From Bolinopsis microptera (Eukaryota > Ctenophora > Tentaculata > Lobata > Bolinopsidae): a stretch of 64,000 nt of DNA. The stretch lies in NCBI RefSeq assembly GCF_026151205.1, contig NC_087081.1, positions 3,415,246 to 3,479,245 of the forward strand, in the 5' to 3' direction. Shown in pieces: positions 91-58,714 of this stretch (its first letter is position 1; each line of letters starts with the position of its first letter). The notes under the pieces were generated by a model. It made no database searches. It saw only the letters and a list, made by a program, of their open reading frames with translations, and had not been told where the DNA came from. The translations under genes were made by a program, and so were the position numbers.

Positions 91-809
91 GTGACGAAAT
101 CACTGATTAAGTGCCAAGATCACGTATCTGCAATATCTTAAAAGGGTCATAAATCGATCAAATTGTAAACAACCAACTTGAAATTTTGGGAAAGTACTCA
201 ATTATCAAACCAAACATGTCTAGAAACTTTGAAGTTCTTAGCTGAAAGCGTTCTCACTTTATGGTGATAGGGATTGTCGTGCCGCACCCACTGAAATTGG
301 TTAAATTTGACGTAACTTTCAGGAAATCTAAGTTTGACCCATATCTATAATCTCTGAAATTTCTGTGCAATTCTAAGAAGAATTACGTGAGTTACCGACC
401 ATTCCTATCGTATATTCCTGAATGATGGAATGATTTTTTGTCATTTGGCTATAAAATTCTTGCTGCAATTGATTTGTTGTTCTTCTAAAACATCAAGATC
501 TCACAGTTATGCTCAAACAGCTTCACAATTGACATTCAATAGATTGGGCTCTGGGGATTTCTTCTTGTTCAGTACAGGAGTTGAATTTAAAGTTAATGAA
601 AAAAGCACTTAAAATTTTAATATTATGTAAACGGATACTGTAGACGTAAATATTATATACTTTTGATTTTGTATATTTTAGATTTTCATTTGTACTAACC
701 AACTTACATTTTGCATAGGGCTTATGCTTTTCCTGTGAATACAGACCAACTTATAAGTAAAGCACAGCATCCTACAAACTGTAGATGGAGTGACCTCACA
801 TCAATCTGA
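91..809. other. Intergenic region before Cbl
   Basis: AT-rich sequence between the tail of the upstream gene and the Cbl start exon. It should contain the 3' UTR of the first and the promoter or 5' UTR of the second, but I see no clear TATA box, poly(A) signal or CpG-rich block. The short open frame at 430-612 has no recognisable content. Confidence 0.4.
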
Positions 810-822
810 ATGGCTGAAGGAG
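810..822 (+). CDS. CBL: Cbl exon 1 (start codon)
   Basis: ATGGCTGAAGGAG followed by the donor GTAGTT. It gives MAEG plus one base, which joins the GA at 993 to complete a glycine codon. The ATG is chosen because phase and position fit the next exon and because an N-terminal Gly-rich stretch is usual in Cbl proteins. A 13-base exon is too small for a homology call, so the start rests on splicing logic. Confidence 0.6.
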
Positions 823-3800
823 GTAGTTATATTTCAATGATTCTTGATGTATCATAATATTATGTTTGAATCATAATTACTCTAGATAATATGTATTTTA
901 TATGGCGTTATTTTTTGGGTATTTTGTTTCTTAAAAGCTTGCTATAAATGCTAGCATTATTTATTCAAAAATTTACCAGAAAGCTATCACAGGAATAAGT
1001 GGCCTATTTTCTCGTTTTACTGGAGGTGGAAGAGGCAACACCCAAGGAGGTCTAGATGGAACTAACATTGACAAACGAACTATTGAAAGGTAAGAACTCC
1101 ATAGTTGCAGTTGTTCTAATTTCCCAGAGAGTGCTCAACTAAGGAAGTTTAAAATGTTTTTTTTTATTTTTATTGCTGAAATATATTATCTACAGGGTGC
1201 AAAGATTTCTAGAGAAATTGGTGAAACTATGCAGCAACCCTCAGCTAGGGTTGAAAAGATCTCCTCCCTACCTTCTAGATCTCTTACCACATATGTTCCA
1301 AGTGAGTGTAAGAATAACACTGATAATTTCTTTAAATCAACTGAGGGATTTCTTGTGTTTTATCACTTTCATTGTAAAATTGTATACAGTTGACATTCCT
1401 GTACTTAAATGTTTTGGAAAACTATGAAAGCATGTTGTTTTCGTGCAGAATGGGCACATTTAGATGGTGATTTCAAGTCTGTAGGCTAACACACTCCTTT
1501 CAGACCCTGTCAGAGATATTCAAACAATATGACAGTCGGATAGTCGAACTTAACAGTAACCAGTACTTCCGACTCTTCATTGACAACATCTGCAACAAGG
1601 TACATGTTAACTATTACAAGGTAACCCTCTTAATTTTTTCCAGGGCACATTGACAATAACTCAGTATTTCAACAATACATAGATGTGGATACTGGTGGGG
1701 AGGTGAAACACATTTGTTTACTTTAATAGTAAGCACATGTTCAGCGGGTTGAGGAGGTGAAACACATTTGTTTACATTTTTAGGGTAAGCACATGTTCAG
1801 CGGGTTGAAGAGATGATACACATTTTGTATTATAGAAGGCTTGTAACACTTGTAACGCTTTCTTGTTACCCCCTTTGAAGGCCCCGAATTATTTTCTGAA
1901 CGAAAGCTCAAAAATAACCGAGAAATCGACCTTCTTATTAACTCATTTTGATGACTGTTTCTGACCTAAAATTGCACGAAAAATCGATTTAGCTAGGTTT
2001 CAGAACCTATAAACACTTCCTTATCCCTCAAAATTGATGTTTTATAGTTGATACGAGCAACAAGCAACATATGTTTTGATCCTTCGGTTCTACTCATGAC
2101 CTAGGCAGTTAAGCTGAACCCGACAGATCGAGGCAATCCTCACCTTAACTGATCAAACTGGTACTAACACAATTTTCAGATATAAATGTTCTTTGCGATA
2201 CGTTTATTGCAGCTTTGCAACTTGAGTGAAGACCAGAGTACGAAAACACACAGCAGGTAAGCAACTCACTTTTGGTGACTGTTCCTCACGAACATTCTGA
2301 TCCTGTAACAATTTAGTATACGATAGCTTAGAAGTGAAACCCACTTATTGTAGTACCAACTATGGTCATACGAGACTAAGGAATAATGTACATAAATAAG
2401 TTACATAATAAATTACCATATATTATAACAAACATATGAACAGGGAGATCGTCTCCTTAACAAATTGAACAGGTACTATCACAATTTCCAGAGCAGGTAC
2501 TATCACAATTTCCAGAGCGTAATTTTCACAATTTCCAGAGCATAACAAAGTCAAAAGAAACACAACGAAGGTAGGTTACCAACACCACAATATAACAATT
2601 ATACTAACAACTGAATTAAATTTATTCTGACGACGGGCAGCCCTGATGTGCTCCGTCATCCTCAACGAGCGACCACTTGTAATAGAGGTGTTATGTCATG
2701 TGACACCGATCCGTCCAATCACAAACAGGACGAGTCAGCAGATCGATATCGTGTGTTTACTTTCCTTATCTTTATTTGACCCTCTGTTCACATTGTTATC
2801 TCTACCACATCTCGGCTCGGCAAGGTCCACGTGCAATATCTGCACCGCGGTAAACACGCCATGATTACGTCATGAACTTGAAATAATGTGATTGTTGTAC
2901 TTATATAACCGTGCCCATTGCCCAAGTACAATACAAACTGTTGGGGGGGGGGGGGGGGAGGGGATTGTAGGAACTTATCGTCCAGTCATGAACAGAATAT
3001 TAACATAATTTTTTAGTTATTTAAGCAGACCTGGTCATTTTAAAAGAATCACTGTCCACTTCCCTCAAAAAAACAGGGTTCAAATTAACAAGTTGGGCAC
3101 ACACGAATGCGATGTCGCTCAGATAAGGCAACATCTTCGCCACAACTTTGTTTCCCAAAATCTTGTACCGCTTCAGATAGCCAATTGAGCGTTCCACGTG
3201 GATGCGGGCGATGCTGACTTTTCTGCTGGCTGCTACTTCTTCCGGCGTGAACTGAGTCTTGCCCCACATCCCCGCTGGGATGTTTAGTGTAACTCCTGAA
3301 ATTTAATTCGCTTTTTATGCCGCTTATTCTTAACTAACCGGACGTTGGACAACTAAACCGAAACATGCTATAACTAAACAATGATAATGTTCCGTTCCTG
3401 ATTGAACATTTAGCATCACAGTCAGTTGGAGGAGCGACCAACACACAGAATTAAGACACAGAATTAAGAAACATAATTAAGAAACATAATTAAGAGGCAG
3501 CGTTGTGGAGGGTGGTTGTGGAGTTTGGAACCAAGGGATAGAGATATCTGAAAGGTTGAGGTAGGCATGATTGGGACACTTAATGGTAGGAGGGTTGTGC
3601 TTCGGCATCGCCAAGCAGAGTAAATGGCTGTATCTTTAGCCTTCTTTCTGGAGTAGATGAACCCGTCCGTGTCCACCAGCTGTTGAGATCCTCTCTGTAC
3701 TTCATTGAATTTGGAGAAAGCAAGCATTGAATTGAAACCGATACTTTTCATGTTCACGTTTCAGTATATATACTAGAAGTGCAGTTGTATATTAACAGCT

Positions 3801-6800
3801 GATCAACTCTCTATACTTGTGATTGTATGTCTCGTATCACTCCCATTGCATGCTCGGCTCACATCCTTGGATATGAGAACCAGCCCCTTTCGGACCCGGC
3901 TCACGTCCGTTATGTGAACACATGCCGAGGGCTCAAACACTTCTTAATATACTTCATAATACACAGCTACTTACTAAACTGTCATGTGAACCCTACCCAG
4001 GTTCTTGGGTAACAGTCTGTTGGGATGGTTATAATATGGATCACATCACAAATGATACGTCACTGATTGGGCCATGTGATGTGATACCTGTGGGAGGCCG
4101 GAATGAGAGGTTCCTAGTTGTCGGTCACCGCAACAATCACACTATTTCAAGTTCATGACGTAATCATGGCGTGTTTACCGCGGTGCAGATATTGCACGTG
4201 GACCTTGCCGAGCCGAGATGTGGTAGAGATAACAATGTGAACAGAGGGTCAAATAAAGATAAGGAAAGTAAACACACGATATCGATCTGCTGACTCGTCC
4301 TGTTTGTGATTGGACGGATCGGTGTCACATGACATAACACCTCTATTACAAGTGGTCGCTCGTTGAGGATGACGGAGCACATCAGGGCTGCCCGTCGTCA
4401 GAATAAATTTAATTCAGTTGTAAGTATAATTGTTATATTGTGGTGTTGGTAACCTACCTTCGTTGTGTTTCTTTTGACTTTGTTATCATGCTGTGCTCTG
4501 GAAATTGTGATAGTACCTGTCCGATTTGTTAAGGAGACGATCTCCCTAGCTGTTCATATGTTGCAGGATCAGAATGTTCGTGAGGAACAGTCACCAAAAG
4601 TGAGTTGCTTACCTGCTGTGTGTTTTCGTACTCTGGTCTTCACTCAAGTTGCAAAGCTGCAATAAACGTATCGCAAAGAACATTTATATCTGAAAATTGT
4701 GTTAGTACCAGTTTGATCAGTTAAGGTGAGGATTGCCTCGATCTGTCGGGTTCAGCTTAACTACCTAGGTCATGAGTAGAACCGAAGGATCAAAACATAT
4801 GTTGTTTGTTGCTCGTATCAACTATAAAACATCAATTTTGAGGGATAAGGAAGTGTTTATAGGTTCTGAAACCTAGCTAAATCGATTTTTCGTGCAATTT
4901 TAGGTCAGAAACAGTCATCAAAATGAGTTAATAAGAAGGTCGATTTCTCGGTTATTTTTGAGCTTTCGTTCAGAAAATAATTCGGAGCCTTCAAAGGGGG
5001 GTAACAAGAAAGCGTTACAAGTGTCACAAGCCTTCTATAATACAAAATGTGTATCATCTCTTCAACCCGCTGAACATGTGCTTACCCTAAAAATGTAAAC
5101 AAATGTGTTTCACCTCCTCAACCCGCTGAACATGTGCTTACTATTAAAGTAAACAAATGTGTTTCACCTCCCCACCAGTATCCACATCTATTAATGCCTA
5201 ATAATGATTCACTATGAATGTTCATTTCATGTACAGGTCACACATGTATAGGTCAGCCAATGTTGTTTCATGCCCCTATTTGAACAATAGTCAATATACC
5301 TTATACTTTGAAATTCGGTCATGACTCCAATATTGATAATATCTATTGAGAACTGCAATATTATTATCTGATGGTTTCATCATATATATTATACTGGTAC
5401 AGCTAAATATTCTAGCTTAATCCAACACGAAATGTGTTTAATTAAATAACATACAACAGCTTTAAATTGTTGATAAATACAATGACATCGGTAACAGATT
5501 GGCTGATAAACTACAAGATCTATAATATTTTAACCAATAAAATTAAAGCCGAAAGTTTAATAAGTATCACAATGATTATTCAAGTAAACCTCACAGTAAT
5601 TTGTGTTTCCTCTAGTTTACATCCATTTCTTATCCATTTCTTGAAGTTTACCATTCTAAAGAAGTAAATAATAGGATTGAGGGTAGCATTCAAAACTGGG
5701 AGCAGAATTTCACATATCGTCCAGGAATGCCACAGCATGAAATAATTGCTGAAAAGTCCGACATCTATAGAGAATTTATCACCGTAAACAATCGAGAAAG
5801 TTGTATAAAGACTGAACAGTAAAAAAAGTGGGCAGTTGCAGAGCAAAAAAACGGCTGTGAAAATTGTCACTGTGACAGCAGCAGTTCTCCGTTTGTCATT
5901 TGTTGCCCCAACTCTCGATCCTTTTAACAATTTGACCAGACAGACCAGGAAACTGAAGAAAGTTATGAGGGGAGGAACACCATACTCTATTGAAATAAGT
6001 GCATACTCCGTGGTTATAAATGTATTTTCAGTCTCAGTTATCGTATGTTCGCCTGTCTCAAAATAAAGGTAACAGTAAGTAGCATCAGCCCCGTAAATAG
6101 CATTAAATTTTAAAAGTAACATACAAATACTGTGTGCGATCAAAAGTAGGCAGTACATAAAGAGGCCTCCGAAAATGAGCTTCTTTCTAATTCTATAAAA
6201 TGGTCTAGCGATGGCAATAGCCCGACTTAAACTTAAAAGAAGGACTAAAAACATGGAAATTTTGTTGAGGAAGTCAAAAAGAATGGTCGAAGATGTGCAG
6301 AAGAAGATGTTGTTGAATAAAACAGGGAGTCTCCGCTTAAACAAGGATACTGGAACAGGAAATCGGACCAAACATGTGCAAAGATCAATAACACCGGTTA
6401 TAAGGTACAATTGTGTAGCCAAGTCATTCCTTTTGGTTTGCCAGAAGTATCTGAGTGAAAGACTGTTCCCTGCAATTCCTAGAAGTCCAGCAAGCAGAAT
6501 CAGAGTTCCTAGTGTTATGTCCCAGCCTTCTTCGGGTGAAGTTGAGAGTTCGGAGAACATCAGTACATGGGAATTGAGGTCGTCAGTTCCAGGCATCGTT
6601 TAGTGCAACCTAAAAAGTTATGTATATGGTCAAAAAAAGTTTTTTTGTTTCATATTGCGTAACTAACTTGATTTTTCTCATTCGAAGGAACACTACTCGG
6701 AAATGAAAAAAAAACATTAAAATTTTCAAAGGGCTTTTAAACACTAAAGTAATGAAACTTTTGGGATGATCAACAGCATGATGTGTTGAACAGTGATGAA

Positions 6801-9800: not shown

Positions 9801-12800
9801 AACAGAAATTAAAAATAGTGGTAACAGTAAGAGCTCTACTTCTAAAAGTTAAACCAAAACTTGAAAGTTAGAATTTATTGATACGAAAATTAAGTTTTAC
9901 TTTTACAACTTGATCAATGTTAATTTCAGGTCACCGTGTTATTTGCCACAAAAAAAAATCAATCAATTCATAATTGTTGATAACATCGGAGGGAAGAAGT
10001 AGCAAGTCGTATTTACAATAATTTTTGTCTGTATAAAAGTTAATTTCATTTATTTAAACTTCGCCTTTATTACAGTTGAAAAGAGGTATCAAGTTGTTCA
10101 GAGACAGCCGTAATGTGTATAATGAGAATAGCACAGAACGGAAGACACTTACCAGACTATCTCTTCATATCAGTCACATGTTGTATGAACTACGAGCCCT
10201 CTTTCCTAACAGGTAAAACCTTTTTTTAAATATTTTTTATCAATAAACTTTCAAAATTTAAATGTTTACAAATACATCATTTTATTTCATAGAAAATTCG
10301 CCGAATGACCTTACATGCCTTGACAAGTGACCGATTATAAACATTATTTATTGATTCTAATTCCTTTATATTAAAGATTTATACCTTGATTTACTGTCAC
10401 GATCAGATGCAAATATTACTCACGATTCACCTTTTCGTATACAAATAAATGTTCTTCTGGAGTTTCAATTATAAATATTATGTGTTTTAAAGATATTTTA
10501 TCAATGTTTCAGTATTTTCATTGGAGCAGAGTTCCGAATCACAAAAGAAGAAGCTGCCGAATTCTGGAAGAATTCATTTGGAGACAAGTAAGTGACAAGT
10601 GTGATGACTGTCTAACCTACACATTATTACTGGTTTAAGTTAATTATCCATAAGTTAACACTTACAACATTCTTAAATTAAAGGAGAACCAAGCCAAAGC
10701 GAACTTTTGACTTTCGAGTTTCTGTAGGCAACACAGTGGATCGTAGTTTGTTACACAATGTAACACTGTGTTACACTGCGACTATTGGAAAAAAGTCGCA
10801 TGTAGGAAGTGGAATCTGAGATGCGACTTTTTTTTTGTATGAGGAACTATCTAGTATAATATGTTACCTATTTCATACCCCACAATGAATAAAATATGTG
10901 GATTCTGGTGGGGAGTAATATATCTGTTACTCCAAAATCCACATCTATGTACAATGTACATTGTAAATTGTACACCCAGTGTACAAGTTTCACCTCAACA
11001 TCGACAGTGCCGCATACAGCTATACAGGGTATACACTATACATGTTCTCTCAATTTTGACAGTCCAGTAGTACACAACTGTACAATATTCTGCACGTTTT
11101 GCAAAGCCCTCCCCTACCTGTTAAACTGTAAACATTGGAAACCAGATTCTTCAAATACCGGCCACATTCCAACAAGCGAATTAGACAAATCTACACATTA
11201 ACTCCCTACTTTTCTATTATTTCAGCCTTCGCAAGAAGAAAACTTCTTGTAGTTAACAGCTTGTTCTGCAGAGCTTGTTTTCTTTATAATATCACATTAA
11301 AATACCGAATACGCAACAAAATGTGAAAAAGTAGTCAGACTAACCTGTAACTCCCTATTTAGTAGTCAGACTTTAACCTGTAACTCCCTATTTTTGTATA
11401 TTTTACAAGAGTTGTACAACGTATAAGGGAGAAGAAAGTACCAGTAATATAGTACTAATAATTGTATACATTACGTGAGAGTTTTAGTTAATATAACTTG
11501 TATGTTTTACAGGAGTACTAGCTCCGTATCAAGGTATAAATGAGAATATTACCAGTTATACTAGTTTTAGTTGTAGTTGTACAAGAGTGTACCACGTGTT
11601 GTGTACCACGTGTTGTGTACCACGTGTTGTGTACCACGTGTTGTGTACCACGTGTTGTGTACCACGTGTTGTGTACCACGTGGTATAACACCACGTGTTG
11701 TAACCACGCCCTCCCCCTACAATTACAACACATGTCGTCACTTAGCACTGAGTGGAAGCAGTGCTATTGCAAGCTCGGCTTAAACCCATGTTAACTCTCT
11801 TTTAACGTCCGCTGTCACAGCGCTGAGGGGTTGTATTATGTACATTTGTTGATTGCTATGGCGACATCAGATGAGGCAGATGCAGAAGGAGGGGATATGA
11901 GGGGCTGGAGGGGGGACTATATTTACTATGGGGGAAGGGCCGGAGGGGGGGGACTATATTTACTATAGGGGAAGGGCTGGAGGGGGGCTATATTTACTAT
12001 GGGGGAAGGGCCGGAGGGGGGGGGGACTATATTTACTATGGAGGAAGGGCTGGAGGGGGGACTATATTTACTATGGGGGAAGGGCCGGAGGGGGGGGGGG
12101 GACTATATTTACTATAGGGGAAGGGCTGGAGGGGGGCTATATTTACTATGGGGGAAGGGCTGGAGGGGGGCTATATTTACTATGGGGGAAGGGCCGGAGG
12201 GGGGGGGGGGACTATATTTACTATGGAGGAAGGGCTGGAGGGGGGACTATATTTACTATGGGGGAAGGGCCGGAGGGGGGGGGGACTATATTTACTATAG
12301 GGGAAGGGCTGGAGGGGGGCTATATTTACTATGGGGGAAGGGCTGGAGGGGGGCTATATTTACTATGGAGGAAGGGCTGGAGGGGGGACTATATTTACTA
12401 TGGAGGAAGGGCTGGAGGGGGGACTATATTTACTATGGGGGAAGGGCCGGAGGGGGGGGGGGGGGACTATATTTACTATAGGGGAAGGGCCGGAGGGGGG
12501 GGGGGGGACTATATTTACTATAGGGGAAGGGCTGGAGGGGGGATATATTTACTATGGAGGAAGGGCTGGAGGGGGGACTATATTTACTATGGGGGAAGGG
12601 TCGGAGGGGGGCTATATTTACTATGGGGGAAGGGCCGGAGGGGGGGGGGGGGGGACTATATTTACTATGGAGGAAGGGCTGGAGGGGGGACTATATTTAC
12701 TATGGGGGAAGGGCCGGAGGGGGGGGGACTATATTTACTATAGGGGAAGGGCTGGAGGGGGGCTATATTTACTATGGGGGAAGGGCTGGAGGGGGGCTAT

Positions 12801-15800
12801 ATTTACTATATGGGGGAAGGGCTGGAGGGGGGATTTATTTACTATGGGGGAAGGGCTGGATGGGGGCTATATTTACTATGGAGGAAGGGCTGGAGGGGGG
12901 CTATATTTACTATGGGGGAAGGGCCGGAGGGGGGCTATATTTACTATGGGGGAAGGGCCGGAGGGGGGCTATATTTACTATGGGGGAAGGGCCGGAGGGG
13001 GGCTATATTTACTATGGGGGAAGGGCCGGAGGGGGTTTAAATTACCATAGAGAGGTAAGGGAGCAAGTGAAGGCTAAGATTATTATTAGAGAATGAGTGG
13101 AGAGCTGACTCTGGGGAAGGCTGGGTGGGGGCTGCAATCAACGTTCTATATAATGAGTATCGTTGTTCTGACACATAGTTGGGATTATCATCATCTCAGC
13201 TCATAAATGTGTAATTCATCGTGGGCTGTGAAAACTTTTAAGTATAGGCGTATATAGTAGCACTTAACGTATTTACTTAGCAACTTGCCTGTAAACTATA
13301 CAGTGTATAATACATACAGCTATACAGTGTACAATAAATTTCATGAAATATACACTTACAACAGCGCTTTGAGTAGGAAAATGATTTTTTGTTAGTAGTA
13401 ACGGATGAGAATGGATAGACGTACTCTGTGACGTATAGCAATGTACTTTATCATATTTTTCTTATTTCCAAAGAAATGTTAAATAGTGTTGAAATGTGAT
13501 ATTCCGCTGTATAATAGTATAATGTAACTGCTACAGATTGTAAATAATCGCATAATCCAGTTCAAGTACGCTTGTGCGAAGTCATATGACAGTGCAGGAC
13601 ATTGAATGACAGGACATTGATTCGAATCTCAGAAGCTTTCAAATAAAATGTGTCAATCGTCTTCAGTCGACAATAAGTTATTTGTATTTCATTATCTCTT
13701 AATCTACAATATCTGTTGTTCTGTAGGATCAAGATGACGTGGTCATAGTTTAATCAAAGCGTAAAGTGTCAACAATTCACCATGCCTGTGCCTTAGTTAA
13801 ACCAATTAAGTCGCTTAGTTGAGACAATTACATCACTTAGTTCAAGCCATTATATAATTAAAATCAACAAAAGTAGCACGCAATTGTATTAAGACTTGAG
13901 TAATACAAGGGAGTGACGGGTTTTATAATTACCAGCATAATTAGCGGAGTAGAACTTCGAAATTTACAGCGCGGCTCAGGTTCATGGCGTTGTATTCTTA
14001 TTTTGCTAAATACCGACTTTGTCGAGTAGATTAGGGGGGGGGGGGGGCGGGGCCGTGGGGGGAGTACTGGGCCTAGACTAACTCTCCTGTGTTCTGCTCC
14101 CAGTTCATTCCATGGCCAGTAAGGTGGGCCAGTAGCATGAAACACTTGTCTCTCGTTTGATTTATAACCGTACCCTGAATTACTTAATGCTTAATGTGCG
14201 TCAAATAGCAGCTCCATATAAAATACTCTAACTAAGGGTTTGTGGTTGAAAAACGTGAACTGTTTAGAAATCAGAGCTTCTTAATGAACGATTTGACCCG
14301 TTCCTCGGTTTGAAGAATTTCTTGAAGCAGGTCCAAGTTGGGATGTTCCGAGCACATATTTTAACAGTGTACAAGTACAACCTGATATATATAACAACAC
14401 AGGCAGTACGTAAGTAGTAGGAGTATATGGAGAGTAGGGGAGGAACTGTTTAAAAGTGCTGAAGACTTAGTAGGCATGTTGCAGTTACTAATGGTAATGC
14501 GCTGTAACTAGTGGTAACTAATGGTAACGCGCTGTAACTAGTGGTAACTAGTGGTAACTAATTATGGTAACACGCTGTAACTAGTGGTAACTAATGGTAA
14601 CACGCTTTAACTAGTGGTAACTAATTATAATGGTAACACGCTGTAACTAGTGGTAACGCACTGTAACTAGTGGTACACGCTGTAACTAGTGGTAACGCGC
14701 TGTAACTAGTGGTAACGCGCTGTAACTAGTGGTAACTAGTGGTAACTAATTATGGTAACACGCTGTAACTAGTGGTAACTAATGGTAACACGCTTTAACT
14801 AGTGGTAACTAATTATAATGGTAACGCGCTGTAACTAGCGGTAACGTGCTGTAACTAGTGGTAACAAGTGGTAACTAGTGGTAACGCGCTGTAACTAGTG
14901 GTAACGCGCTGTATATTTAGTATTTACAATGTATGGAATACTTGAATTGGAGTAGTTAGTAGTATACATCATATTATACTGTTTGTGGAGTCATGCAAAA
15001 TAGTTATAATCGTCGATCTTAGGACTCTCGAATCAAAGGAATAATTGAATGATAGAGAAAACTTATGACTATGTTCTTTCATTAACTGGACTCTAGTTCA
15101 AACCTAAAATCGCACTATAACCGAAGCCTTCGCAATCTTATGACTTGTTAAATTCTCTAGTTATTTAATTATTCGGTCATTCACAAAGTTAATCTCTAAA
15201 TAAATCACATTTTCAGAGTGATTGTATCTTGGAAAGATTTCCGAATGTCGCTGTCGAATGTGCACCCAATAACGAGTAGCTACGAGGCTATGGCTCTGAA
15301 GTCTACCATCGACCTTACTCACAATGACATGGTTTGTTCAGCCACTGAGGGACCAGGGGGGGGACCTTACTCACAATGACATGGTTTGTTCAGCCACTGA
15401 GGCCAACTGAGGGGCCGGCCCGGAGGGGGGGACCTTACTCACAATGACATGGTTTGTTCAGCCACTGAGGGGCCGGGGGGGACCTTACTCACAATGACAT
15501 GGTTTGTTCAGCCACTGAGGGCAACTGAGGGGCCGGCCCGGAGGGGGGGACCTTACTCACAATGACATGGTTTGTTCAGCCACTGAGGGGCCGGGGGGAC
15601 CTTACTCACAATGACATGGTTTGTTCAGCAACTGAGGCCAACTGAGGGACCGGCCCGGGGGGGGGGGGGGGGGGGGGGCTGGGATTGTTCGACCTTACTC
15701 ACAATGACATGGTTTGTTCAGCCACTGAGTGGTTTGTTCAGCCACTGAGGGGCCGGCCCGGAGGGGCCGGGTGGGGGGGTTTGGGGCTTGGATTGTTGGC

Positions 15801-28700: not shown

Positions 28701-31700
28701 TTCCTCGGTTAGTTTAAGCTGGTTGTGTTACTAAAAGAACAGTAATAATATAATAATTAACGTATGCGTCAGTTATTTAGTATAATCATGAGCAATGAGC
28801 ATGCTGCAATGACTTGATGTTATGTTATCACGTATGTGACCGATGTGCATGTGTAGAAATAGGCCATGGTGCTGTAGTTGAGGATACAGATATGTTAGGG
28901 AGAGAGCGACTTATAATTTAGTAGGCTATTTAGACTGCTACTAGACTTAGATCTAGACTAATAACCTGCCTGTAACCTGCCTGATATATTAAGACTAAAT
29001 TTACATAAATCTAATAATGTCACCTGCTGATGCTGGTTGAACTCTGTAGTATGACTGTGGCCGTTGCATTGTGTGTTCCTAGCTCATGAACAATTCAATA
29101 ACTGCTTAAAAAGTCAAAAGCATGGATCGTGATTACCAGAACCAAGCATGTGCATCTAGATATTATGGAGTTTACAATTTAATTTCATGGCGTGAAGTAA
29201 GAAAGAATTTCCTCCACAATTACAAGGTGCCACATTGTGATGAATAAGTAATGGGGTATATAAATTAATGTATACGAATAGTTAACCTGGGCTTAGTATT
29301 GTTACCCTGTATAGTGTACCTACTAGGGACCCAAGAACCCTGTGCCTTTCCTTGCATCCGCTTACACTCGAAAGAATAGCACAATAGCCCTAACAATACA
29401 CTGTAAGCTCTCCGATCTTCTCGACCAATGACAGCTCGGTATAAACGTCACGTGATAGCTCTCTACCAATGGGTAACGTGACAAGTGGCAAGTGATCACG
29501 TGGTTTCTTTACAGCACAATAATGTTATGTTCCCCAGATGAGCGCGACCAACCCCTTCTTTTCTGATGTTCAAGCGTTACGCAGCCAAGATCCCCCTGGA
29601 TTGACAGGTAAGAGAACAGCTTCCCGCCTTTTTGTAATTAATTACCCTGATTAATTACTCCTAATTAATTACTGGTTCTTTATTTGTCTTTATTGTTAGT
29701 CAGTTTCTAGCAGTTTCTGCTCTACGTAATATATGAGCAATCCTTTAGTTGCTTAGTTACTACATAATATTAAGTTAAGTTACTAAATTAGTTACTATTA
29801 GTTACTATCTAACTATCCTGGTTTTCATTTTTCAGATTAGACCCGCACTTTGTAATTATACCGATCAATCTGATTTACGCTCACCGTATTGTATGCCAGG
29901 GGTACAGTGCAGTGTACCCGGTACAGTGTACCCGGTACAGTGTACACGGTACACCCCTGTTGTATTGTATACCTAGAGTATCTAGACTATGCTTGGAGCC
30001 TCCAGGTCGTTCTGTCAGGCATCACCTAGCTTGCTAGTCAGGCATTACCTAGCTTGCTAGTCAGGTATTACCTAGCTTGCTAGTCAGGCATTACCTAGCT
30101 TGCTAGTCAGGCATTACCTAGCTTGCTAGTCAGGCATTACCTAGCTTGCTAGTCAGGCATTACCTAGCTTGCTAGTCAGGCATTACCTAGCTTGCTAGTC
30201 AGGCATTACCTAGCTTGCTAGTCAGGCATTACCTAGCTTGCTAGTCAGGCATTACCTAGCTTGCTAGTCAGGCATTACCTAGCTTGCTAGTCAGGCATTA
30301 CCTAGCTTGCTAGTCAGGCATTACCTAGCTTGCTAGTCAGGCATTACCTAGCTTGCTAGTCAGGCATTACCTAGCTTGCTAGTCAGGTATTACCTAGCTT
30401 GCTAGTCAGGCATTACCTAGCTTGCTAGTCAGGCATTACATAGCTTGCTAGTCAGGTATTACCTAGCTTGCTAGTCAGGCATTACATAGCTTGCTAGTCA
30501 GGCATTACCTAGCTTGCTAGTCAGGCATTACCTAGCTTGCTAGTCGGGCATTACCTAGCTTGCTAGTCAGGCATTACCTAGCTTGCTAGTCAGGCATTAC
30601 CTAGCTTGCTAGTCAGGCATTACCTAGCTTGCTAGTCAGGTATTACCTAGCTTGCTAGTCAGGCATTACATAGCTTGCTAGTCAGGCATTACCTAGCTTG
30701 CTAGTCAGGCATTACCTAGCTTGCTAGTCGGGCATTACCTAGCTTGCTAGTCAGGCATTACCTAGCTTGCTAGTCAGGCATTACCTAGCTTGCTAGTCAG
30801 GCATTACCTAGCTTGCTAGTCAGGCATTACCTAGCTTGCTAGTCAGGCATTACCTAGCTTTACCTAGCATTACCTAGCTTGCTAGTCTCTTGTTCTCTTT
30901 GTCCCACGCACAGGGATTGGTGCACCAGGTAATGTCAGGCTATGAATTATTATTATTCATGATCACTGATCAGTTAATGAGATATTGTCAGATTCTTGGT
31001 ACCGATTTCATGGACTCGCTATTCATGTCGATACTAATGATTATGACTATCTAGATCACAGTAGTAGTGGTACAGTAGTATTATAGTAGTATCACAGTAG
31101 TAGTTTTACAGTAGTATTACAGTAGTATTACAGTAGTAGTGTTACAGTAGTAGTGTTACAGTAGTAGTGTTACAGAATAAGTGTTACAGTAGTAGTGTTA
31201 CAGTAGTAGTGTTACAGAAGAAGTTTTACAGTAGTATTACAGTAGTAGTGTTACAGTAGTATTTGAACTTCAGAACATGACCTGCTTTACAGTACCTGGG
31301 TACCAGGAAATGAGGAACCAGTGCAGCTGTTAACTATTAGTCACAGCTGTTCGTAACTACTACTGTCCTGAGTCCATTCCATCAGCCATGTATACTGCAT
31401 TAGTCTACTACCAGTGCCAGTAGAATATGTTTCTAATGTTTGTCCTTTGCAACTAGCTACTTTCTACATGATACTGTACGACTATCAGCTGGTGTTGTTC
31501 AACTTAGCCCTGCACCTTAGGATATGTCACGTTACTTAGCCCAGCACCTTAGGATATGTCACGTTACTTAACCCAGCACCTTAGGATATGTCACGTTACT
31601 TAACCCTGCCCCTTAGGATATGTCACGTTACTTAACCCTGCACCTTAGGATATGTCACGTTACTTAACCCTGCACCTTAGGATATGTCACGTTACTTAAC

Positions 31701-51689: not shown

Positions 51690-53037
51690 ATCAAATGAGT
51701 TTTCGTGCATGAAATAGTCCATGCTTAAAACATTAGTAATTTCTAGCTTAATGGAAACCTTTTTTTATCAAACTACCCCGGTCCTGCATTTCAGTGCCAT
51801 TACAAGCCATTCGGCGTGAAATGGTTTTATCTTAGACAACTTTAGGTTAACATTAACATTAAGTGGAGCTTTCCTAGCACTGTTTCATTACCTCCCCTGA
51901 GTAATATGAACTATAACAACGTCGGACAATGTCCTTGGCAACACGATTTACCGTAATGTCATGTTGGCGGGGACTAGCTTATGAACTATGTTGTTGAGTG
52001 CCATAATTTCGTTGACTTTTTCCGCCAAGTGACTCTTGAAAACATCATAATATACTAGTAGAGTTATATTTTTTTAGAGAATATTTTAATGGTGTCCCTA
52101 CAGTGTAAGCATAGTTCAAAAATGTCTCTATTGCCAAATTGCTTCCAGGCGTTTTGCACGAGTAAAATGCTCAAAAATGTTTGCCTTCGACAAACTTTAA
52201 CTGTACGGTACTACTAGGGTACCTACTATATAGTATTGAAATTTATAAAACCTTTGAAATTCTGACTGTGGCGCACAGAAGATCATTCCTACACCCCTGA
52301 ATTATCTGATATTACATGTGAACATTGCGAGGTATCTAGTCTAGTAGGGTTAGGACAGGACGAATTATTTTACAGAAAATTGAATAAAAATTGAATCAAG
52401 TAATCAAGCTTTCTTGGAAACGCGTAGCACTAGTATAGACATGGTATCCGTATAAGTATCTTACTATATATAAAGCGAGACGATAGTTTCCGTGCCATTT
52501 TACTGACACCGCGGCATCAACTTTAACGCGACTTTCCGCAAAAACCGTAAAAGATATACAACTGAAACTTTTTTTGACTGGGTCAAATGCTTTAATGGCC
52601 TTCAAATCAGCATGAAAAAATAAAAAATTGGCAAAGGAAAAGGAGTTTTAGAGCCCTAAATTTGGACCCCCAAGTGGTGTCAAAAACGCGAATTAAATAG
52701 GTAATAATTATTTTAGTCTCTTGAGTCTTGACACCATTTTAGGGTTATACGGGTTGATCCTGCTAGTAAGTATAACTTACAAGTCATCATCAGGGTCAGG
52801 TACCAACTACCACATCACGATTGAGAAATTTAATTATATTTTTTTTTTTTTTATTTTTTTTTGGGGACCGGTTTTTTATACCCGGCCAATGTCTACAAAA
52901 TAATATAATACATAACAATATAATTTTATTTAATATGCGTGAATATGAAAAATGAAAATGTTGATTACGTCTATTCATTAAAAACAAAAACAGAAACTTT
53001 AAAAATTAAAACTTGTATATCATGATTTATTATCATA
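51690..53037. other. Intergenic sequence
   Basis: No gene. The stretch at about 52455-52720 (TATCTTACTATATATAAAGC onwards) has a slight Helitron-start look but no confirmed end. T-rich run at 52837-52862. Confidence 0.4.
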
Positions 53038-53039
53038 TA

Positions 53040-54976
53040 CGGGTAAACCGCCCCTAAAATGTCACCTGTTTTTTGGGCCCAGATTGCCGAGTTAGGGCTA
53101 AATTTACAGGGTTCTGAAGTGTCTAGGAATAATATTTAAACCTTTTTCTAGCCTGCCAGGAAGATTTGGAAATTTGAAAATAAAATCAGGTACAATTTTT
53201 TTGACGTTGAAATGGGGTCACTTTTAAAACACCTCCCCTAAAATGTCAACTCTATATGTGTGATAATTACAAAATGTACAGGAGGCCTGATTTATATTTT
53301 GTCACTAGTACTATTTGTTTTGTCTTATTAAAACATTAAGCTACTTGAAAACATTCACTCACTAAAGGAAGTGCCTCAAAACCGTAATTACCCCCTAAAA
53401 TGTCACATGCACCACCCCTAAAATGTCAGCTAAAACAGGTTGTGTAGCACTCAGAATGTTGCTCAATTATTAATTTTAACCACTTCTGGGACAAATATAA
53501 CCTATTTCTGAGAGGTGTTGACCAGAATTTCTCTCTCTGTTGAAAAAAAATGGTGAAATTTAATCAATTTACTTTTTGTGACTTTTTTGGGACTTTTTTT
53601 TGAATACCCAGAACTGACGGCAAAACAGTAACTCAGTCAACAAAATTTACACCTGTAGTTAGATTATCTAGTTATAAACTAACAATTGACACAAAGGAAA
53701 TGGATTCAATGTGATTTTAACCTAGTGCAAATTGCATGTTTTAATTGCATTTTTTGGGATTTTTAACATCATCCTGCATTTTGGCAATTTTAGTGACCTG
53801 TAGTTAACTAAGCCAACCCAGTAATCGATCTGACCTTCTCTATAGACTAGATTTGACTGCTTTAGCAAAATTGGATGTCAAAAACTACTAGTTTATGGTA
53901 AACCTATGATATGCCCCTAAAATGTCATTTTTTTCTCCCCTAAAATGTCAAATTTGTTGTTTGTTCGCATGGTGTGCGATAATAGCTCTTGTTTTGGCAC
54001 TTGTTAATTATTAACATCAACTATTAACGATATGTGTAGTAGGGATAAGGAGAAGAAGAAATTCATTAAAAGATCAAAGGCATAGCAGAATTAGCAGGCA
54101 TCTAGAATTAGCAGAAACCGCGCGTATATATATATAAATATTACAGACCTTACTAGGACCTGGTGGCTTGAGTGGTAGGCACGTTTGCTCTCTAGCAGCA
54201 GATTGCACGTTCGATACCCGTCGGAGGTAATTATTCTCCCACATTTTTTTGGCATTTATGAAGAACTTTATTTTAAATTGAACTTTTATTGACTATTGGC
54301 ATTTTCTAGGCCAGATTGAGATAAATTTGGCTGGAAGGAGCTGTTCTTGTATGTAGCAATGCATTGCATCTTAGGAAAAGCCTGAGTAATTTGATCAGGT
54401 TAAAATGACATTTTAGGGGGGATAATTAGACATTTTAGGGGATGTTTATTACGATTAATAATATAAAACTAATTCCTTGAGCTGCCAAAGCTTTCCAATA
54501 TTACCATTAGATGCTAAATATGATGTTTAATAGGCTGGTACCTCCATTTTATGGTGCTTGTAGTCTCAAAGCCAGAATCTGATAAAATGACATTTTAGGG
54601 GGCGGCCAGGTGACATTTTAGGGGAGGGTAGTAATATTGAGTAATGTATTACTTTCCATATCTCCAGTCATATGTACAAAGTTGCTAAAATATGTAAATA
54701 TCACTATCCTAGACCAAAACCGAGTTAATATTAATGAATCCCAGAGTTATAAAATTGTGCGCTTTTTTTCAAAAGTAAAAAATTCGTACAAAGTGAAAAA
54801 AAATGCCCTTATGGCATCATTTAGATTCAATTTCAGGATGTGGCAGGGTCCGAATGATATTTTTTTATGTTTAGGAGTTACAAATGATTAGGTAAGATAC
54901 TTTTTAAGAAGCTGGGATCCAATCAATCAAGAGTGGCATTTTAGGGGTGGCTGACATTTTAGGGGCGGTTTACCCG
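53040..54976. mobile_element. TA-flanked 1.94-kb element with twelve mirrored subterminal motifs
   Basis: Ends are CGGGTAAACCGCCCCTAAAA and its inverse, flanked by TA. CCCCTAAAATGTCA occurs at 53051, 53235, 53392, 53415, 53914 and 53937; its inverse TGACATTTTAGGGG, with two single-base variants, at 54416, 54428, 54588, 54611, 54934 and 54952. No long open frame, so non-autonomous. Subterminal repeats of this sort are transposase-binding sites in known DNA transposons (for example Ac/Ds). Confidence 0.92.
54156..54228 (+). repeat. tRNA-like sequence (SINE head) inside the 1.94-kb element
   Basis: TGGCTTGAGTGGTAGGC resembles a tRNA A box (TRGCNNAGTGG) and ACGTTCGATACCCG a B box (GGTTCGANNCC), 43 bases apart. 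The flanks do not form a clean acceptor stem, so it is more likely a tRNA-derived SINE or pseudogene than a working tRNA. Confidence 0.6.
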
Positions 54977-55189
54977 TAGTGACAAATAATTTGATTTGAT
55001 ACGACAGATGATCACACGCACTGTTTTATAAGCTACTTGAGGTTAAAACAAAAAAGAATAACTGAGCCCATGTCTTATCAGCACCTGCTAGCGCTATCTA
55101 TATGATGCTATTAATATGACAGTGTATGGGCAGTGAAAAAAGTGGCATATGGTTGATAGTGACTAGTGTGCTAACCGTCTGGTTTTATT

Positions 55190-58100
55190 TATTCTTAGTT
55201 TATTCTCGGTAGTTGATTTGTTGTGTGCCTGATCTTGTCGATTTACGTAGCCCGGGTAAATTATGTAACAGAAAAGGTGGCCATTCTTCATCGTTTCCTG
55301 AGCTTTGTAGTTCTATCATTACACGCTTCGCTGATTTCTTATATATGCTTATTGAGAAAATGCTAGATGGGCAAGTTATGCGACTAATGTTGTGCTCGGT
55401 AATAGCTAATATAGGACCTTTATACAGAACACTAGCGCGTAGATCTGGTTGAGAGAACGTTGTTAGCCAGTCGATATTGTCGTCATAAGACGTGCCATAC
55501 TTTGGTATATCGGGAGGAAATAAGTCTTTTATCGACGACGGCAGAAGGCCAGGCATGTAAGTTATCTTGTGCATCAGAGTCAGAGCATTTTTTATGATGA
55601 CCCCGTGTACAGATAATATTTCGTACTCTTTAAACGTAGTTTTAGTATGATCCGGAAGCTTACCGTCCTTGTAATAGTAATTCACGTAGCCCGGCATAAC
55701 TGCTCGTATTCCCTGCTTTTGTTTAGTGAACAGTGATTCAATATGGGATTTTGCAGCAAAGCCCCAAACTAGTGAACAGAAATTTAAGTGAGATTGTACA
55801 AAACTTTGGAAGATCTGTAAGCGTGCTTTGATTGGTAATTTTGCGTTTTATTTGAACATAATACCTATAAACCGTGACATTTTTGTTTTGACGGCTCGGA
55901 TGTGGCTGGCCCATTTTAGTTTGTCGTCGACGATAACTCCTAAAAACCTGGCCTCCGTTTTGCGTTCTATAGGAGAGTTGTCGATACTTACTTGTAGAGA
56001 CGATAGATCTACCCGTCTTTTTGAAAATACCATATAGCAAGTCTTCTTCAGATTAAGAGCTAGGCCGTTCGAGTTAACCCATTTTATCAACACGTCAGTG
56101 AGGTGGTTTACTTTGGATATAATGTCTTGTACATTTGATCCGGTGATAATAATGTTTGCGTCGTCTGCGTATAATATAAATTTAGCTAGGTTACTGATTC
56201 TTGGTAAGTCATTGATATATATGACAAAGAGCAGGGGGCCTAATATGCTCCCTTGTGGAACACCGTATATCATAGATTCCAATGATGAATTGGAGCCGTT
56301 TAGGGAAACAAATTGACTGCGACCACTGAGGTATGACTCGAACCATTTCAACGCAATGCCACGAATACCGTAATGCTCAAGTTTCCTGAGTAATGTCGCG
56401 TGATCTAGGACGTCAAATGCCTTGCTATAGTCTAAAAGTAATAAAAGTGCTATTTGGTTCTTATTTAGAGAATGCAGAATAGAGCTCTGAGCATTGAGAA
56501 GTGCGTGCTCACATGATCTTCCTGGTCGGAATCCGTACTGATTCTCGAATAGAGAGTTATTCTTGTCGAGAAATTCTAAAAACGCGTCTGTGCATTAGTT
56601 TTTCATAAATTTTGAGAACGAGCCCAGAAGCGAAATAGGTTTATAATTCGCTACGTCGAGTTTACAACCTCCTTTGTGTATAGGTGTAACTTTTGCCGTT
56701 TTCAAAGCTTTAGGGAAAGCTCCCTCTACAAAAGATGTGTTAACTACTTTTGCTAAGGCGCATAAAAAATTTTGGCATGTGCTGGCTATTTTCAAGGGCT
56801 CAATCTTTGAATCGAGAGTTGCCTTATTTTTTAGGCCAATAATAATTCTATGAATCTCGGTGGGCCCAGTAGGTTCGAGGTAGATAGACGTTGGACATGA
56901 CCCGGTCAGATACTCCTGGAACCCCCCAGGATCGAAGGTCTGTCGGGAACTGATCTGAGACTTGATGTTGGCTGCGATGCTGGAAAAGTAGCCATTGAAC
57001 TTTTCAGCGACTGCCGAGTTAGTACTCAAGATCGTCCCGTCAGTATCCCTCAATCTGATTTGATCAGATCCCCGTCTTTTTCTGTTTAGCAGGGCCGTTG
57101 ATTATCTCCCATTGTTTTTGGAACAGTCCTGATATTTTTCAAATTGTTTTTTGTAATACCGCTCCTTGGCAATGTTACGTGTTTACTGCAAAATAGTTTC
57201 ATTTTATCGTATGCAGCTATGTTTTCATCAGTAGGCTCTGTGATATTAAGATGGTATAATTGCTGTTTACGTGCACAAGCTGTTTCGAGCCATGGAAGTA
57301 TCCACGGCTTCGGATCAGACCGTTCATTTTCACGACGATTACGATTACTCTTACGGGGTATGCAGTGTTGTAATGTTTCATGTAGATTTCTGAGAACTTG
57401 TCATACTGTTCACCTCGCACTGCCTGATTCCCGTGCTTCCTCCCACGTCTCCCCTTCCAATAGCTCCTTGAACATGTAGCATTGCTGGCTTCATTCATAG
57501 TACGTGTTTCACGGTATTTTGTGGTATCGGTCCTATTTGAGTGTGTAGTGTGCTTTTGTGATACTGCACGTAACTTTATAGTGGTCAACGTTGCAGATGA
57601 TTGGAGATGTCGAGTGTTAACACGTTGCTACTTAATGTGTTTTCAATATTATTTGTGTACACATGGTCAATAAGGGTGGCACTGTGGTCAGTGACTCGTG
57701 TTGGTTTTGAAACAGTTTGACAAAACCATATTTTGCCAGTGTGTCAATGAGGTTCTGGCTTGAGGAATCAGTGTCATATTTAATAAGATCAATATTTGCA
57801 TCGCCATGAAACATAACGTGTTTGCGTGAGTGTCTATCTAGTCTATTAAGTACGTGATCGAGTAAGCTAATGAACTTATTTGTATCTCTTGACGGTGATC
57901 TGTATAAATTTACTATAACCTTGGTTTTGTTAAAACCTTTGCAATTATGAATTTTGACTAGTTGGAACTCGCCACTCATGTCTTCAGGATCCAGAGCTAA
58001 GTCAAGACGTTCAATTTTATCAAAATCGCACACACGTTTGTTTATATAGATTGCTAACCCACCTCCTCTCCCCGATTTTCGTAAAGGTGCTTGTATAACA

Positions 58101-58714
58101 GGTTCGTGAAAACCCTCGATTGTGATATCATCAATACCATTAGGCAGCTTATCAATGTTACAGTTAGTTTCATTAAAGCATAACACATCACATTTTGAGA
58201 AGGTGTGGATTTCTTCTCTAAGATATGTTATGTTTTTTGCTAGTGATCGTATATTTAATGAAAAAACTTTCAACTCGTCTTTGGCGGAGTTTGTGACGTT
58301 TTTAGGTTCTTGATATTTGCACTTGGTTAAGATTTCGCTTATTTCATTCCAGTATTCGTTGTTCATGTCACTATTCTGATCTAAACTATTGCCGATGGAA
58401 TTTATTACGTGCGAGCGATCATATGGATTGAAACTAAGACGTGATGCGTGAAGGTGGTCGAACTTATCATAGAGATCGAATGTCTCTACATTGTAACCTG
58501 GAATCATTGATTCGCAACATCTGATGCAACCTAACGTTTCCTGGAAACATTTCCTATGCACATGGCCCTCGCACCATGCACAAGTACGCAAGTTAGACTT
58601 AGAGTAACACCAGCCCGGACAGGCCGTGCATTTGATTTTAATTTTTTGACTATTGCTAACTTCACCGTTTGTGTTCATGATGTTTTTAAATTTCGTTGTG
58701 AATTGATTAATCAA
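55190..58714 (-). mobile_element. CR1-like LINE, nearly full length but frame-broken
   Basis: On the - strand, 58714 to 57632 encodes a Cys-rich N-terminal domain (CTACPGWCYSKSNLRTCAWC, then RKCFQETLGCIRCC) followed by an APE-type endonuclease (LKVFSLNIRSLAKN, DVLCFNETNC, RGGGLAIYI, VIVNLYRSPS, FHGDANID). The 57588-57060 link is in several frames (PWILPWLETACARKQQLYH resembles the usual P-W-x-x-x-L-L..K-K..L-Y). 57053-56595 is the RT start (AKVTPIHKGG, NYKPISLL), 56351-55848 the RT core (GVPQGSILGPLLFVIYINDL and the catalytic FILYADDANI), 55697-55200 the C-terminus. PQGS, FADD-type YADD and the Cys-rich front fit the CR1/L2 group. At least three frame breaks. 58715-59020 is probably its 5' UTR. 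Confidence 0.9.

Follow-up and report, generated by a model that had tools for sequence, protein, structure and literature searches.

The stretch of DNA analysed here, which we call the window, comprises 64,000 nucleotides of the genome of the ctenophore Bolinopsis microptera (NC_087081.1, positions 3,415,246 to 3,479,245). Towards its right end lies a 1,937-bp element with TA on either side and a perfect 25-bp terminal inverted repeat (Table 1); when the TA is counted, 27 of 27 bases are complementary, i.e. 25 bp of the element plus the TA duplication. Close to the element, the minus strand at 55848-58714 holds fragments of a non-LTR retrotransposon (RVT_1, Exo_endo_phos). Elsewhere in the window, overlapping long frames run over a coding tandem repeat of the GEGPEGG type (11928-13096), and there is a 7-transmembrane receptor frame as well as an LDL-receptor class A domain.

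Table 1. Features of the element in the window (positions are those of the window).
Feature	Position	Strand	Basis or remark
Whole non-autonomous transposon	53040..54976	+	Length class common to L010, L011, L012, L014
Left TA of target site duplication	53038..53039	.	Sequence; sister-copy empty sites fit single-TA duplication
Left terminal inverted repeat: CGGGTAAACC + G + motif	53040..53064	+	Inverted-repeat search
Motif site 1	53051..53064	+	Exact
Motif site 2	53235..53248	+	Exact
Motif site 3	53392..53405	+	Exact; paired with site 4 (start-to-start distance 23 bp)
Motif site 4	53415..53428	+	Exact
Motif site 5	53914..53927	+	Exact; paired with site 6, 23 bp
Motif site 6	53937..53950	+	Exact
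Left arm common to both main size classes	53040..54041	+	BLAST of element 1-1002 against copies
Centre missing from 1.64-kb class, 317 bp	54042..54358	.	BLAST junction 1002/1320
Right arm common to both main size classes	54359..54976	+	BLAST, element 1320-1937
Motif site 7	54406..54419	-	Exact; paired with site 8, 22 bp
Motif site 8	54428..54441	-	One mismatch
Motif site 9	54588..54601	-	Exact; paired with site 10, 23 bp
Motif site 10	54611..54624	-	Exact
Motif site 11	54934..54947	-	One mismatch; paired with site 12, 18 bp
Motif site 12	54952..54965	-	Exact; within terminal repeat
Right terminal inverted repeat	54952..54976	-	Inverted-repeat search
Right TA of target site duplication	54977..54978	.	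Sequence and sister-copy empty sites

The frame list of the window contains no open reading frame of 150 or more amino acids inside the element, and the same ends recur in many copies, in agreement with the initial annotation, which had described a TA-flanked transposon without a transposase of its own. With its terminal repeat, TA duplication, many dispersed copies and no transposase gene, the element qualifies as a non-autonomous cut-and-paste DNA transposon. When the text of open-access papers was searched for four short end and motif strings, one string turned up in a single paper, which to judge by its title and the start of its abstract concerns goat prime editing; to this extent the family appears undescribed.

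Within the element, the 14-bp motif CCCCTAAAATGTCA occurs 12 times, ten times exactly and twice with one mismatch, with six copies facing inward from each end. The counts and the mirror orientation had been noted before; the right-half form of the motif is exact at four sites and not at six as first stated, and the site that had been placed at 54416 starts at 54406. The outermost pair of sites falls within the 25-bp terminal repeat, as had also been claimed. At up to one mismatch, all 12 matches are inside the element; the remaining window has none, and neither does any of 200 versions of the element shuffled at the single-base level. When three mismatches are allowed, 20 matches occur in the window, whereas 100 dinucleotide shuffles yield 7.4 on average and 13 at most. 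Repetition of 14-mers is itself common in the window, where tandem-repeat stretches reach 40 copies. The unusual feature is the scattering of motif copies in mirror orientation, not the repetition of a 14-mer. The stretches that start at 29056 and 30993, of 1.9 kb each, are dense tandem repeats in which 14-mers occur 34 and 40 times, respectively.

The sites lie 12, 196, 353, 376, 875 and 898 bp from the left end and 12, 30, 353, 376, 536 and 558 bp from the right end; hence the two arms mirror each other exactly at three positions (12, 353 and 376 bp). The sequence between the sites is unrelated in the two arms (28.8% identical in register vs a background of 27.6%, SD 2.0%), and the three-site mirroring therefore exists without recognisable homology of the spacers. 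Young copies of the family retain the twelve-site layout. Across 37 of them, 285 of the 444 site instances are exact; bases 1-9 (CCCCTAAAA), 11 and 13 are nearly invariant, and most of the variation lies at positions 10, 12 and 14 and consists largely of fixed differences of individual sites. The spacings of the pairs (18, 22 and 23 bp) are also stable: all 37 copies preserve the spacing of three pairs, 36 preserve that of a fourth and 30 that of a fifth. The six-plus-six layout of the putative docking sites is unusually tidy.

To place the element in its genome, we searched the host assembly (264,652,675 bases, or 264.65 Mb, in 232 contigs) with the 22-bp end of the family. At up to two mismatches this gave 57 forward and 54 reverse matches, and the reversed control gave 0. 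Tallied by hand from the matches listed (100 of the 111 for the 22-bp end), the family occupies at least 79 loci, 57 of them found through the 22-bp end and 22 through other end and motif searches; one of these 22, at C7:13100698, is counted by its end and motif pair alone. The expectation that genome copies would carry the same ends is thus borne out.

The insertion sites are uniform in one respect only. Among the flank pairs of copies that retain both ends, 46 of 47 show TA on either side, L024 being the exception; L037, which has two candidate right ends, is entered twice. TA also terminates 106 of 109 distinct 12-base flanks. Beyond the TA no flank base is fixed; the preceding base is T in 45, A in 36, G in 22 and C in 12 of 115 end instances, a count in which some genomic ends are present in two loci. 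Sequences that match the joined flanks with one TA removed, i.e. paralogous empty sites, were found for L036, L045, L047 and L057. Those of L045 and L047 are adjacent repeat units in the same stretch, that of L036 is another copy of the window element's own family, identical across the 41 bases shown, and the empty site of L031 is ambiguous (TATA). Flanks with TA on both sides together with empty sites with a single TA indicate cut-and-paste insertion with duplication of TA.

The young copies fall into two main size classes of about 1.94 and 1.64 kb, and older copies exist besides. Five complete copies, the window copy included, measure 1,937-1,939 bp, and two further copies, L015 (2,013 bp) and L029 (5,910 bp), have other centres between arms that are 98-99% identical to those of the window copy by BLAST. 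In the 1.64-kb class (30 copies aligned) the mean distance from the consensus is 1.0% (range 0.4-2.1%), seven copies of the 1.94-kb type lie 0.1-0.46% from theirs, and older copies such as L093, L094 and L098 are diverged by about 10% or more. We infer that the family has been mobile more than once and that its latest activity was recent. The alignment comprised the window copy and 40 of 93 loci, with large-insertion copies, copies missing ends and short stretches omitted; it visibly misaligns L069 and L093 at their left ends, and the counts of the four old copies were left unused.

The centres are heterogeneous. That of the window copy contains, at about 54050-54265, a foreign repeat that also occurs at other places in the genome (22 matches, five of them in the window subfamily including the window copy itself). 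This repeat looks tRNA-like by eye; a tRNA gene was rejected, as ARAGORN reported 0 and Rfam gave no match at E up to 1 in 53000-55000. The centre of L029 (4.2 kb) is mostly a CTC-type simple repeat with CGGACAAAAA repeats, and that of L015 is other sequence, partly repeated elsewhere. Between 1452 and 5280 of L029, the CGGACAAAAA repeats adjoin kilobases of the CTC-type repeat, and a 43-bp piece at about 1452-1494 matches 39 other places among 40 scored, perhaps as another repeat family. About 120 bp of centre are common to L015 and L029 (5376-5492 in the latter) and are absent from the other places among eight matches; this segment is perhaps a relic of the parent element. None of the three centres looked at (window, L015, L029) shows a recognisable transposase; the frames of L015 and L029 that were tried, eight in total, have no Pfam match over the cut-off.

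The initial annotation had proposed to compare the motif with the spacer among copies, and the outcome is weak: the motif shows no clear excess of conservation, which counts against the binding-site reading. Between the consensus sequences of the 1.94-kb and 1.64-kb classes, conservation of the motif does not exceed that of the spacer (3 of 168 vs 21 of 1424 positions differ), and all three motif differences are at position 10. Within the 1.64-kb class there is a slight excess of conservation, with 37 differences in 5040 motif bases (0.73%) vs 432 in 42568 spacer bases (1.01%; Fisher P = 0.03, which is optimistic because it ignores the shared ancestry of the copies). Both tests are low in power because the copies are young and because insertions that have landed are not expected to be under selection. 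The layout of the sites is stronger evidence than these tests. Among moderately diverged copies, L038 (95% by BLAST) keeps all twelve sites at up to two mismatches, L092 (95-96%), which has lost its left tip, keeps 10 of the remaining 11 at the same threshold, and L069 keeps its six right-arm sites; the most diverged copies have lost sites, with six family sites left in L093 and five matches at up to two mismatches in L094.

The autonomous relative with the same ends that the initial annotation suggested looking for was not found, either by the family ends or by paired motifs, in partial searches of the host assembly that covered 100 of the 111 end matches and a sample of motif contexts. The tip followed by a base other than G occurs at 56 places (146 + 139 in the reversed control), which include 28 places with TACGGGTAAACCT, four of them read; 23 places have the tip with a variable C run, and three have it with other following sequence, of which one was read. 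All 18 places with motif pairs whose spacer starts with A or G are at family loci. The motif in the context VCCCCTAAAATGTCAA, which is absent from the window copy and turned out to be common in the 1.64-kb class, has 46 genome matches, 45 at family loci and one in L095. The places read are family members or tips without motifs. Neither motif pairs in viral contigs nor the family end in prokaryote contigs were found (0 in each case). A C at position 11 had looked like a second family; this was rejected, since these are length variants of a C tract, with 15 of 20 short stretches belonging to the family and five not. In eight of 15 family ends (L070-L083 and L086; for example at the start of L076), the C run that follows CGGGTAAA is at least ten C long without interruption, with a maximum of 34, an instability of length right at the end of a transposon.

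Several loci were considered as the coding parent and set aside. L029, the longest complete young copy read (5.9 kb), has simple repeats at its centre, and two of its longer frames lack a Pfam match over the cut-off; L069 (C12) has a little of the L015/L029 centre and is a broken copy in unrelated sequence. A 3.2-kb central stretch of L091 (about 633-3820) has a 248-aa frame without a Pfam match. It is flanked by GATGCAATG on both sides and carries the same block with TATGCCAT four times at both edges, which we interpret as the mark of an independent insertion that duplicated 9 bp; it looks like another transposon and was rejected as the parental coding region. L090 and L093 adjoin MULE transposase frames, which sit beyond the truncated left end (L090, L092, L093). 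L090, L091 and L092 have the identical right flank TATATGTCCGTA, to which that of L093 is a near match, and on the left L090, L092 and L093 match as well. We read these four as duplicates of one old insertion on account of their common flanks, and L090 and L093 were rejected as parents accordingly; the element seems to have multiplied there as a passenger inside a MULE-bearing repeat. The interruptions of L042, L043, L044, L046, L049 and L068 hold frames that are retrotransposon-like by eye. The assembly also contains 13 matches to DDE_3, of the Tc1/mariner type, and the one inspected, L100 (C3:16199350-16201450), is a mariner-like element of 1.4 kb whose ends are ACAGGGTGTT and in which the motif does not occur even with three mismatches allowed. 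L100 has a 398-aa open frame, and DDE_3 matches in frames of equal length occur at two other places.

Insertion at TA with duplication of TA is the mark of Tc1/mariner, and the family shares this target duplication with Tc1/mariner and with MITEs. Sleeping Beauty has two sites per end, and for Tc1/mariner it is uncommon to find arms of 0.6-1.0 kb that bear six sites apiece; the ends of the family also differ from those of the mariner-like L100. The TA duplication sets the family apart from Mutator (MULE), which duplicates 9 bp, and from piggyBac and Kolobok, which duplicate TTAA. P elements duplicate 8 bp. The 3-bp TWA duplication of PIF/Harbinger does not fit either, since next to the family ends TA alone is fixed and the preceding base is free.

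Closer parallels exist for the arrays. According to excerpts of PMC2613891, CACTA (En/Spm) elements likewise have arrays of short subterminal motifs near both ends, with a G+C-rich and an A+T-rich part; in Spm/En, TNPA recognises such subterminal repeats and defective copies are moved in trans. For SmTRC1, an animal TRC element of the CACTA type, 7 of 14 copies show target duplications of 2 bp (PMC1636069). However, the tips of our family are CGGGTAAACC, not CAC(TA) or the CCC of TRC, its duplication is TA, and it is linked to no transposase. In Galileo, a member of the P superfamily in Drosophila, a THAP domain of the transposase binds several sites in the long ends, which is thought to give specificity (PMC3688188). 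Our family may resemble it in having several sites per long end, if these are docking sites; the inverted repeats of Galileo, in contrast, are long and internally repeated, and the arm spacers here are unrelated. TA duplications are not restricted to Tc1/mariner, as the fungal PHISTA and ESTA, PHIS-like and EnSpm-like lineages, have them (PMC12730594, in part), although these are defined by their transposases and our family is known from non-coding copies. ISL2EU (PHIS), for which extracts of PMC4482050 give an AT duplication inside A|AT|T and ends that usually start with GG, differs from our family, which duplicates TA and starts with CG. Since TA or 2-bp duplications are known from several groups and none of the groups compared has matching ends, we assign no superfamily.

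To account for the architecture of the element, we propose that it is a non-autonomous, TA-duplicating cut-and-paste transposon whose motif arrays are docking sites for a transposase, or for its DNA-binding partner, supplied in trans; judging from sequence, we give this reading a probability of roughly 0.7. The working parts would be the two non-coding arms, each with the 10-bp tip (CGGGTAAACC) and six motifs that share their orientation with respect to the closer end and mostly form pairs spaced by 18-23 bp. Another element would encode the transposase, or the DNA-binding partner of a transposase, that docks on the arrays and brings both ends of the transposon together, and after cutting at the CGGGTAAACC tips the transposon would insert at another TA. 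We infer that the motif is a docking site bound by the transposase rather than by a host protein, that the arms probably suffice for movement, and that the enzyme was presumably supplied by a partner element that the assembly did not reveal. The binding-site reading appears to fit the architecture of the element.

Clustered sites of one kind could recruit a host factor, and the arrays of an otherwise identical TA transposon might then be bound by a silencer or a transcription factor and not by the transposase. The near confinement of the VCCCCTAAAATGTCAA-context motif to family loci would be in keeping with this, and so would the sharing of TTTTAGGGG with what we take to be telomere-like repeats. 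A host factor would, however, leave unexplained the strict orientation towards each end, the exact mirroring and the presence of the outermost motif inside the terminal repeat, and the loss of sites from the most diverged copies also argues against it; we consider it unlikely that the arrays exist for such a protein. RNA offers a different role for inverted sites, in which transcripts would fold by pairing plus-strand with minus-strand copies, six of each, and enter small-RNA silencing. The copies are indeed complementary, with 37-nt arms at 53392-53428 and 54588-54624 that reach 86%, yet the intervening spacers are unrelated and mirror arrays in DNA transposons require no RNA role, and we find this explanation very improbable.

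It is also conceivable that the motif copies do nothing at all, as remnants of an internally amplified repeat in an element that needs only its tips. The want of excess motif conservation between the young subfamilies would agree with this, as would a window rich in tandem repeats such as the 40-copy 14-mer from 30993. Against it, the copies have the 14 bp in common and not their flanks, the six-plus-six orientation is without exception in the window copy, the spacing of the pairs is nearly constant, moderately diverged copies (L038, L092 and L069) hold their sites in place, and three sites take exact mirror positions in two arms whose spacers are unrelated. Taken with these points, functionless remnants seem to us a rather unlikely account, and docking sites for a transposase or its partner remain the reading that we prefer.

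The elements described here form a recently active, unclassified DNA transposon family, and the mirrored-array arrangement is already known in principle from other transposons. More speculatively, and with considerable doubt, the family might represent an animal lineage of TA-inserting transposons outside the known superfamilies, with Spm-like mirrored docking arrays, the coding elements of which are either lost from the genome or different in their arms. With about 80 loci of several ages, varied centres and one site layout common to the young copies, the family offers a clean natural series on the number of putative docking sites per transposon end. As TA duplication combined with six sites per end fits neither Tc1/mariner nor CACTA neatly, the enzyme that moves these elements would show which superfamilies use such arrays.
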